DNA of 64,000 nucleotides from an uncultured Peptococcaceae bacterium. Lineage in GTDB: Bacteria > Bacillota > Peptococcia > Peptococcales > Peptococcaceae. The notes beneath the pieces are model-generated. The model was not told the DNA's origin and searched no databases. It saw only the letters and a list, made by a program, of their open reading frames with translations. This document shows, in pieces, positions 13,103 to 15,994 of this stretch; position 1 is the stretch's first letter, and the number at the start of each line of letters is the position of its first letter. The DNA is taken from assembly GCA_949743265.1 (NCBI GenBank), contig CATJSX010000073.1, positions 1 to 64,000 on the forward strand, read 5' to 3'. The position numbers were made by a program, and so were the translations under genes.

Positions 13103-13357
13103 TTAGCGCTGATAGGCCAAATATAGCAACCACGTGACAATAATAAGTGCGCTCAAGCCGCTACCGCCTAGAAAAATACGATAGCCTTTAGAACCAAATT
13201 GACGATAAATACCAACGCTGATACTTTTTTCTTTCTCTCTTTCAACGCTGCAAAGCCATGACCAATTTAAAACTGCTCCTATAAAAAGCAGTAAACTACC
13301 CACAAATAATAAAAACAACAGCCAGTTTTTTAACAAAAAATGCAAAAGTTCCTGCAC
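13103..13357 (-). CDS. Small membrane protein, Imm17-like
   Basis: An 84-residue protein with two hydrophobic segments (about residues 8-30 and 62-80) and a NWSWL motif after the first. The layout, with an Asn-Trp-x-Trp and a Gly-rich second segment, resembles small membrane proteins annotated as Imm17 immunity proteins. No toxin gene is adjacent, so an immunity role is not supported by context. It lies upstream of the threonine aldolase gene on the same strand. Confidence 0.5.
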   Translation of the reverse strand: MQELLHFLLKNWLLFLLFVGSLLLFIGAVLNWSWLCSVEREKEKSISVGIYRQFGSKGYRIFLGGSGLSALIIVTWLLYLAYQR

Positions 13358-13676: not shown

Positions 13677-13705
13677 TTGACAAGATATATAAAAAAGAGT
13701 AAGAT
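13677..13705 (+). promoter_or_regulatory. Sigma-A promoter of the Phe-regulated operon
   Basis: TTGACA (13677-13682), a 17-base spacer, and TAAGAT (13700-13705). It lies 34 bases before the leader peptide start, in the otherwise non-coding stretch that follows 13358. Confidence 0.8.
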
Positions 13706-13738
13706 TTAGATAAGCAATTTTATTGGAGGTAATGGATA

Positions 13739-13861
13739 ATGGAGTGCAAAGAATTGACTTTAAAAAGTGCATATTTTTTCTTTTTTAGCTTGGGTCAATT
13801 TTTTGGCGCAGGCTTTTTTGGGTTGCGTCCTTTGGCTTCATCTAATCGGTTCGTCTGGTAA
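13739..13861 (+). CDS. pheL: Phenylalanine attenuator leader peptide, 40 aa
   Basis: GGAGG (13725-13729) lies nine bases before an ATG at 13739 that opens a 40-codon frame ending TAA at 13859-13861. It contains nine Phe codons: four in a row after a Tyr (residues 13-16), two pairs (21-22, 26-27) and one near the end (38), plus a C-terminal Trp. It sits directly upstream of a terminator and of DAHP synthase and P-protein genes. This is the expected design of a ribosome-mediated attenuator responding to charged tRNA-Phe. An alternative ATG at 13732 is too close to the Shine-Dalgarno sequence. Confidence 0.85.
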   Translation: MECKELTLKSAYFFFFSLGQFFGAGFFGLRPLASSNRFVW

Positions 13862-13924
13862 AAACGCTGATGAAAGCGCATTATTGAGCCCGAACTTTGG
13901 ATAGCCAAAGGTTCGGGCTTTTTT
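13829..13924 (+). promoter_or_regulatory. Attenuator: terminator and competing antiterminator pairing
   Basis: The terminator is AGCCCGAACTTTGG (13887-13900) with CCAAAGGTTCGGGCT (13905-13919), one bulged base, followed by six T residues. CCTTTGGCT (13829-13837), inside the leader ORF, is perfectly complementary to AGCCAAAGG (13903-13911), which includes the 3' arm of the terminator. Ribosome stalling at the Phe codons upstream could leave that pairing free and prevent terminator formation. The alternative fold is read from the sequence; its use is inferred. Confidence 0.8.
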
Positions 13925-13952
13925 GCGTTTATCAATTGAAGGAGGAAAAAAC

Positions 13953-14966
13953 ATGATTGTTATTTTAAGGCAAGGGGTAACAGAACCAAAAATCGAAGAA
14001 ATTTCGCAATGGCTGGAAAGTTTAGGTCAAGTCAACGTCAGTGTGGTACGAGGTTCACAGACAACTATTTTGGGATTGGTTGGCGATACATCAGTTATTG
14101 ACCAAGATTCAGTAGAATCCAATGAATGGGTGGAAACCGTTACACGGGTTCAGGAGCCGTATAAAAATGCTAATCGCAAATTTCATCCCGATGATACTAT
14201 TGTAGAAATTGGCGGACATAAAATCGGCGGCGAACATTTTCAGGTTATTGCCGGACCTTGTTCAGTAGAATCCAGCGAACAGATTATGACAGTAGCTCAA
14301 TCAGTCAAATCTTCCGGCGCTCATTTGCTTAGAGGCGGCGCTTTTAAACCGAGAACATCGCCTTATTCTTTTCAAGGTATGCGGGCGGAAGGCATTGAAC
14401 TATTGTTGGAAGCCAGAAAAGCCACCGGCTTACCCATTGTCACAGAAATTATGAGCTTGGCTCATTTGGATTTATTCAATGATGTTGATGTGATTCAAAT
14501 CGGTGCCCGTAATATGCAGAACTTTGAAATGCTCAAAGAATTGGGGCATTGTCAAAAACCAATTTTGCTGAAACGAGGGCTGGCCAATACTATTGAAGAA
14601 TTGCTGATGAGCGCTGAATATATTATGGCGGGCGGCAACAATAACGTTATTCTTTGTGAAAGAGGCATTCGTACATTTGAAAAATATACCCGCAATACTT
14701 TGGATTTGTCAGCAGTTCCTGTATTAAAACGACTTTCTCATCTGCCGGTCGTTATTGATCCCAGCCATGCAACAGGTTTTTCCTATTTAGTGACTCCGTT
14801 AGCTAAAGCTGCCGTAGCTGTCGGCGCAGATGGTTTATTGATTGAGGTGCATAATGATCCAGCCAAAGCGCTTTGCGATGGCGCACAATCGCTTAATTGC
14901 ACCGAATTTGAAGAACTGATGCAAGATTTGAAACGCCGTATTGCTTTTGAAAATCGGGTGATGTGA
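13953..14966 (+). CDS. aroF: 3-deoxy-7-phosphoheptulonate (DAHP) synthase
   Basis: A 337-residue type I-beta DAHP synthase that condenses phosphoenolpyruvate and erythrose 4-phosphate, the first step of aromatic amino acid synthesis. An N-terminal ferredoxin-like regulatory domain (about residues 1-70) precedes the TIM barrel, which shows AGPCSVES, LLRGGAFKPRTSPY, GARNMQNF and IDPSHATG. GGAGG precedes ATG 13953. The gene directly follows the phenylalanine attenuator, so expression is expected to fall when Phe is plentiful. It overlaps the P-protein start by one base. Confidence 0.93.
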   Translation: MIVILRQGVTEPKIEEISQWLESLGQVNVSVVRGSQTTILGLVGDTSVIDQDSVESNEWVETVTRVQEPYKNANRKFHPDDTIVEIGGHKIGGEHFQVIAGPCSVESSEQIMTVAQSVKSSGAHLLRGGAFKPRTSPYSFQGMRAEGIELLLEARKATGLPIVTEIMSLAHLDLFNDVDVIQIGARNMQNFEMLKELGHCQKPILLKRGLANTIEELLMSAEYIMAGGNNNVILCERGIRTFEKYTRNTLDLSAVPVLKRLSHLPVVIDPSHATGFSYLVTPLAKAAVAVGADGLLIEVHNDPAKALCDGAQSLNCTEFEELMQDLKRRIAFENRVM

Positions 14967-15994
14967 TGGAAGAAATGGAGCCGTTAAACCGTCTCGCTAT
15001 TATCAATAGTCAAATTTCAGCCCTTGATAATGAAATTACCCGTCTATTTGGCGAACGCCTACTCCTGAATGAAAAGGCGGGCGCGTTATACGCTGCTCTT
15101 GATGGTAGAGAAAAAAAATTTGCGGCGTATCCTTCATTTACGCCGCTGATGGATCAAATGCTTTCTGAAACAGTTGACAGTTTATCGAAAAAAGCAACAG
15201 TAGCTTGCCAAGGCGTTGAAGGCGCTTTTTCACACCAAGCGGCAGAACAATTTTTTTCTGAAGCTAATATTGTTTTTTATCAACAGTTTGATGACGTTTT
15301 TCGAGCCGTTCAGTGTGAAGAAGTAGATTATGGGGTATTACCTATCGAAAATACTACTGCTGGCTCAGTAGTGCAAGTATATGATCTTATGCGCCGTTAT
15401 GATTTTTATATTGTGCAGGAAACAAAAGTGCGTATTAGTCATTGTCTTTTGGCTAAAGCAGACACCAAATTAGCTAAGCTGAAGGAAGTTTATTCTCATC
15501 CGCAAGCCCTCAACCAATGCAGCCGATTTTTTGAAAGTAATCAGCAGTTAAAAGCAGTAGAATATTCCAATACTGCAGCTGCAGCTCAATTTGTTGCCAA
15601 ACAGTCAGAGCAAACGTTGGCGGCTATTGCTTCGCATCAATGTGCGCAAAAATATGGACTGTCTATCTTAGCAGAAAATATCCAAGATATTGCTCATAAT
15701 ACGACACGCTTTATCTGTATCAGTAAACGACCAACTTTTTTGAAAAACGCTAATAAAATCAGCATTTGCGTTACCCTGCCGCACAAAGCCGGTTCATTAT
15801 GTCATCTGCTGAATAAATTTTCAGCGGTCAGGTTAAACTTAACCAAATTAGAGTCCAGACCGTGGCCAGAAAAATTATTTGAGTTTCTGTTTTATTTAGA
15901 TATTGAAGGAACACTCAACGATCCCAAAGCACGATTGCTCATGGAAGAATTAGCCAATCAGTTGGGCTATTTCAAATTGCTTGGCTGCTACTAG
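14966..15994 (+). CDS. pheA: P-protein: chorismate mutase-like / prephenate dehydratase
   Basis: A 342-residue protein. Residues about 5-50 resemble a short AroQ-type chorismate mutase helix (INSQISALDNEITRLF, then ERLLLNEKAG), shorter than a full domain, so mutase activity is uncertain. The prephenate dehydratase domain shows QGVEGAFSHQAA, PIENTTAGSV and the catalytic TRF. The C-terminal ACT domain carries LPHKAGSL and ESRPWP, the Phe-binding motifs, so feedback inhibition is expected. The start is taken as ATG 14966 in a TGATG overlap. Its product branch explains why the operon leader is rich in Phe codons. Confidence 0.9.
   Translation: MEEMEPLNRLAIINSQISALDNEITRLFGERLLLNEKAGALYAALDGREKKFAAYPSFTPLMDQMLSETVDSLSKKATVACQGVEGAFSHQAAEQFFSEANIVFYQQFDDVFRAVQCEEVDYGVLPIENTTAGSVVQVYDLMRRYDFYIVQETKVRISHCLLAKADTKLAKLKEVYSHPQALNQCSRFFESNQQLKAVEYSNTAAAAQFVAKQSEQTLAAIASHQCAQKYGLSILAENIQDIAHNTTRFICISKRPTFLKNANKISICVTLPHKAGSLCHLLNKFSAVRLNLTKLESRPWPEKLFEFLFYLDIEGTLNDPKARLLMEELANQLGYFKLLGCY

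Follow-up and report, generated by a model that had tools for sequence, protein, structure and literature searches.

The DNA analyzed here (64 kb, hereafter the window) carries a leader region between a divergent ORF on the minus strand (13103-13357) and a gene for DAHP synthase, and the features of this region and of the genes that follow it are collected in Table 1. The divergent ORF encodes a small membrane-like protein whose Pfam match to Imm17 is borderline (25.3 bits; cut-off, 25). An initial annotation had placed DAHP synthase and a P-protein downstream of the leader. The DAHP synthase was confirmed, and the second gene indeed encodes a prephenate dehydratase; the label P-protein is unproven, since a profile match to a chorismate-mutase domain was sought in this protein and none was detected. 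By eye, the approximately 75 residues ahead of the PDT domain (14963-15200) look AroQ chorismate mutase-like, with no profile match.

Table 1. Features of the leader region and the downstream operon (window coordinates).
Feature	Position	Strand	Details and basis
Sigma-70-type promoter	13677-13705	+	Predicted; -35 TTGACA (13677-13682), 17-nt spacer, -10 TAAGAT (13700-13705)
Shine-Dalgarno (SD) sequence of leader ORF	13724-13728	+	GGAGG, about 10 nt 5′ of the ATG at 13739; sequence
Leader-peptide ORF	13739-13861	+	40 codons, 9 Phe; 83 loci have comparable F/Y-rich ORFs in the corresponding position
Phe codons 13-16	13775-13786	+	TTT TTC TTT TTT; sequence
Phe codons 21-22	13799-13804	+	TTT TTT; sequence
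Early (1:2-type) hairpin	about 13805-13811 with 13823-13829	+	Predicted by folding
Phe codons 26-27	13814-13819	+	TTT TTT; sequence
Antiterminator 5′ arm (region 2)	13829-13853	+	Last third of leader ORF; folding of growing transcripts
Phe codon 38 (ninth)	13850-13852	+	TTC; inside antiterminator arm
Intrinsic terminator	13886-13924	+	Predicted; 15-bp stem 13886-13900/13905-13920, 4-nt loop, bulged G13910, T6 at 13919-13924
Antiterminator 3′ arm	13891-13911	+	Most of terminator 5′ arm, loop and first part of 3′ arm; all 21 bases paired
DAHP synthase	13953-14966	+	B. subtilis-type, with N-terminal ferredoxin-like (FXD) domain; PRK08673, TIGR01361, PF18152
Prephenate dehydratase	14963-15994	+	PDT domain; start overlaps DAHP synthase stop by 4 bases

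The leader peptide (MECKELTLKSAYFFFFSLGQFFGAGFFGLRPLASSNRFVW) contains nine phenylalanine codons, seven TTT and two TTC, arranged as a run of four, two pairs and a single codon, exactly as the initial annotation had read them. It is the sole SD-preceded ORF in the 64 kb window with at least seven Phe per 16 residues. Both hexamers of the promoter that had been proposed ahead of it were found and match the consensus at 10 of 12 positions, with 1.7 promoter-like sites expected by chance in that stretch; TTGACA was also seen upstream of leaders at three other loci (L005, L014 and L065).

Folding of positions 13739-13930, suggested earlier as a check, gave a z-score of -4.15, with none of 200 shuffles as good. 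The terminator claimed ahead of the genes was found, and the upstream ORF, being divergent, has no use for it. A simple terminator scan did not report the stem (13886-13920), probably because of its bulge. In growing transcripts, the two antiterminator arms were predicted to pair through helices of 9, 6 and 6 bp (13829-13837:13903-13911, 13840-13845:13897-13902 and 13848-13853:13891-13896). The pairing noted at the outset is complementary as stated, but constitutes merely the outer 9 bp of this longer antiterminator. The probability of the antiterminator pair 13833:13907 was 0.996-0.997 in RNA ending at 13911 or 13915; that of the antiterminator was 0.43 at RNA end 13920, where the two states are nearly even, and 0 once the U-tract and flank were added, so that the terminator wins. 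Antiterminator and terminator are thus mutually exclusive in these folding models. The terminator was the minimum free energy state of the full-length RNA at any stall position, which implies that antitermination must be kinetic.

A ribosome-mediated transcription attenuator that senses tRNA(Phe) charging and controls the DAHP synthase-prephenate dehydratase operon is, judging from the sequence, very probably the best explanation of this region. The parts are complete and stand in attenuator order (promoter, SD sequence, Phe-rich ORF, antiterminator, terminator and genes). As in leader-peptide attenuators, an ORF rich in codons for the product precedes the first gene, an intrinsic terminator intervenes, and an alternative antiterminator lies between the stall codons and the terminator. 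Transcription would start just 3′ of 13705, and the leader ORF would be translated immediately. With ample Phe-tRNA, the ribosome would reach the stop codon (13859-13861) and its presumed footprint would cover the 3′ part of 13829-13853, whereupon the terminator stem would form and transcription would end before the genes. When Phe-tRNA is short, the ribosome would stall at codons 13-16, 21-22 or 26-27, with footprints expected to leave 13829-13853 free for its computed pairing with 13891-13911. As the latter segment contains most of the terminator 5′ arm, the terminator would be blocked, RNA polymerase would read on, and the Phe-making enzymes would be produced. A ribosome stalled at codons 26-27 should have its edge, at the presumed footprint position, about at the start of the antiterminator arm. 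The ninth Phe codon lies inside that arm, and a stall there should therefore not relieve termination, making this codon unlikely to be a useful sensor. In untranslated RNA, the leader start is predicted to fold onto region 2, which would give termination by default. In B. subtilis, RNA polymerase runs ahead of the ribosome, according to the statement in PMC9226507 that cites Johnson et al. 2020; such uncoupling would hinder ribosome-mediated attenuation if it also held in this host.

In Bacillota, control of amino acid operons is usually ascribed to T-boxes or regulatory proteins. Control without translation, with the terminator governed by a T-box, a riboswitch for a metabolite or a protein like TRAP and the ORF a mere bystander, would accord with this custom and with the wide use of T-boxes in the source genome. 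This genome has 17 T-box matches, 11 of them over the cut-off, which precede leuA, leuS, leuC, cysE, valS, metG, glyQ, hisS, pheS and others. However, a T-box upstream of the operon, looked for because the initial annotation had named it as contrary evidence, was found neither at the locus nor on the contig by the Rfam search or the genome-wide T-box search, all 17 matches lying elsewhere. Other Rfam families gave nothing but weak chance hits in the leader up to E ≤ 10, Phe_leader itself gave no match at either the gathering score or E ≤ 10, and the feature that the leaders have in common is the F/Y-rich ORF. Such control is highly improbable here. A T-box does precede pheS (G000:C43:10055-10281; L124), and the cell appears to monitor the charging of tRNA(Phe) by two routes, this T-box and the leader before the biosynthesis genes. 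Another T-box (L115; G000:C141:26956-27182) precedes a gene for an Lrp/AsnC-type regulator and an aminotransferase gene, on the same contig as the second DAHP synthase gene. The source genome was also checked for a run of five His codons, taken as the mark of another leader, and had none.

To place the leader among related loci, 80 loci with the same DAHP synthase were taken from a scan of one genome per species, and whole-genome searches added more. A leader was defined as an SD-preceded ORF with at least six Phe/Tyr per 16 residues within 450 bases upstream. Such an ORF was present in 59 of the 80 loci, and together with a terminator in 52; the remaining 28 had no recognizable leader plus terminator. 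Dinucleotide shuffles yielded the ORF at a rate of 2.75% and the ORF with terminator at 0.25%, and the corresponding rates among 1588 other stretches of the same loci were 1.2% and 0.19%. In all, 83 loci carry the leader, with 80 different peptides and a terminator at the same place in 74. They span at least 14 family codes of Bacillota, besides named Clostridia. At five loci (L034, L060, L061, L070 and L076), leader and terminator lie approximately 300-450 bases 5′ of the DAHP synthase gene, compared with the usual approximately 100-250. The comparison of leaders in related genomes that the initial annotation had called for, together with the lack of a T-box at the locus, supports its proposal of ribosome-mediated attenuation by Phe codons.

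The antiterminator gives comparative evidence of its own. In the window, pairing between spacer and terminator had a z-score of -3.65, with 0.5% of shuffles as good. Across 58 leaders, pairing of the spacer 3′ of the aromatic run with the first half of the terminator beat that of shuffled spacers (mean z, -1.8; p ≤ 0.05 in 45%). When own and foreign spacers were compared among 39 dissimilar representatives, terminators paired best with their own (mean rank, 0.17 versus 0.5 expected; KS p = 8e-11). These comparisons indicate that antiterminator complementarity is kept although the terminators differ. In 52 of the 58 leaders, a ribosome standing on the stop codon would overlap the antiterminator arm, as the mechanism requires. 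AT-rich DNA easily yields TTT-rich ORFs, and one might suspect a poly-T-rich ORF that happens to stand beside an unrelated terminator in AT-rich intergenic DNA; the match of terminators to their own spacers already refutes this reading, as does the recurrence of ORF plus terminator at a rate far above that of shuffles, and its probability is practically negligible.

The leader is not a constant companion of DAHP synthase genes. It was absent from all 16 samples of more distant DAHP synthase genes (about 52-57% identical; L179-L194), three of which (L181, L184 and L187) have a T-box-like motif, and from the second DAHP synthase gene of the source genome (L155). The five nearest relatives (71-73% identity; L002, L004, L006, L009 and L078), which form the sister group of the window on the tree, have a short region upstream of DAHP synthase with the gene's own start, and no leader, leader terminator or adjacent pheA. 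Because they lack both elements, they do not show a terminator kept after loss of the Phe codons, the pattern that had been named as evidence against attenuation. This absence looks like loss or replacement along with the operon context, the direction not being given by the tree. Another member of the family to which the window belongs (G003) has a Phe/Tyr-type leader (L164).

The identity of the aromatic codons varies with the gene that follows DAHP synthase. With next-gene classes taken from clustering of downstream ORFs, and named by sequence recognition rather than profile search, the Tyr share of aromatic leader codons was 0.05 before pheA (n = 2), 0.25 before aroB/aroA (n = 16) and 0.47 before tyrA (n = 37). 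The Mann-Whitney test gave p = 1.9e-7, a value that overstates the evidence because the loci are related by descent and independent pairs are few. On the DAHP synthase tree, there were three supported independent pairs (six on all branches); among the supported ones, a mean of 2.1 agreed with the expectation and 0 opposed it. At L008, where pheA is next, the leader has Phe only, as read by eye and with a weak SD sequence. These patterns are consistent with, but do not prove, leader codon identity tracking operon content, with Phe before pheA and mixed or mostly Tyr codons before tyrA.

Codon choice is also skewed. Phe is spelled TTT in 85% (295/346) of the leader Phe codons at 64 loci, including the window (13775-13852), against 52% expected from third-base usage of the leaders' other NNT/NNC codons (p = 7e-39) and a TTT share of 39% in the DAHP synthase genes. 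Tyr codons in the leaders show no bias (106 TAT observed, 111 expected). The excess of TTT might reflect slow TTT decoding or polymerase pausing. The NusG pause motif TTNTTT was considered as a cause of the TTT codons and found unsupported: the observed 1.69 motifs per leader, and at least one motif in 73% of leaders, do not clearly exceed the 1.64 and 64% of a null with leader base composition preserved.

A segment F-S-[AT]-G-[FY] is shared by leaders of many families, including that of the window (13799-13819) and 12 others (L003, L007, L011, L013, L154, L156, L158, L161, L165, L167, L171 and L178). Its codons are fixed, with F12 spelled TTT in 13/13 and S13 spelled AGC in 12/13, which points to constraint at the nucleotide level. 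The recurrence of this motif, in the form [FY]-F-S-[AT]-G-[FY], and the hydrophobicity of the leader peptide could suggest a genuine small membrane peptide that serves some purpose of its own, with the terminator doing no more than fixing a constant ratio of peptide to operon. Yet there is free variation in length, at both termini and at most positions beyond the aromatic run, the choice of Phe or Tyr as the aromatic residue changes with the next gene, and a matched antiterminator is kept. Fixation of the motif at the nucleotide level does not indicate selection on the peptide, and the conserved peptide was rejected as a functional product; we consider a functional peptide quite improbable. 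The same segment, lying 3′ of the aromatic run, might instead act in the nascent chain; the stall that drives the same hairpin switch would then come from the chain itself or from a ligand in the ribosome tunnel (phenylalanine as the free amino acid, or some other metabolite), and not from uncharged tRNA(Phe). The tryptophan-dependent arrest of TnaC is a precedent for a ligand-dependent stall. Nevertheless, several well-formed leaders lack the segment, such as those of the YYYYYY and YFYFYF types, a tRNA sensor calls for just such numerous, interchangeable Phe/Tyr codons, and the fixed codons suggest an RNA role rather than a peptide role, all of which makes such a stall very improbable. Sensing of tRNA(Phe) charging through leader translation remains our preferred reading.

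The mechanism itself is textbook, and the element in the window is new in sequence and lineage. In E. coli and other enterobacteria, pheL-pheA combines a leader ORF with Phe codons, a mutually exclusive antiterminator and terminator, and a prephenate dehydratase gene. The window shares the Phe-codon leader, the exclusive hairpin pair and a downstream prephenate dehydratase gene with that system, but belongs to a different phylum, has DAHP synthase as the first gene and has a leader of 40 rather than about 15 codons. Like the T-box (RF00230), the window element would sense tRNA charging via an alternative antiterminator; the T-box reads the tRNA directly without translation, whereas the attenuator proposed here would use translation of the leader. 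The nearest published case, compared with the window family by described features only, is uORFC-13-1 of Acholeplasma aroF, which stands before a 3-deoxy-7-phosphoheptulonate synthase gene with a promoter, an RBS, a uORF with a Phe-coding U-run and an adjacent terminator, and for which attenuation was proposed (PMC8632094). Its 24 sequences come from Acholeplasma and unassigned environmental sources only, with at least one Phe and a separate conserved stem (PMC8632094). Leader-peptide attenuation in Bacillota has been published for the his leaders of hisZ/hisS* in bacilli (PMC2965389) and for the Leu-rich ilvD leader in ilv-leu attenuation of Staphylococcus aureus (PMC5794164); the principle is the same, and the window differs in amino acid, gene and class. 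The view of the initial annotation that attenuation of this type is unusual in Bacillota was thus only partly right: precedents exist, and the window is one of a large family. In the part of the open literature searched, Phe/Tyr leaders of Clostridia were nowhere described.

Collectively, the window attenuator appears to be part of a large family, present in at least 14 families of Bacillota and undescribed besides the similar Acholeplasma aroF uORF. We lean toward the view that this aromatic leader-attenuator family is old and that sensing of Phe only, of Phe and Tyr, or of mainly Tyr has been retuned by codon exchange as operon content changed, with T-boxes operating in the same genome and the near-exclusive use of TTT perhaps linking sensing to slow decoding or to pausing of RNA polymerase. 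Widespread attenuators with matched antiterminators in Clostridia and their relatives imply that transcription and translation would be coupled closely enough for attenuation there, at least in leaders. Culturable members (Bittarella, Neobittarella, Negativibacillus, Angelakisella and Emergencia) allow a direct test of this question of coupling, and the leader family provides a natural set of sensors whose codons alternate between Phe and Tyr according to the operon product.
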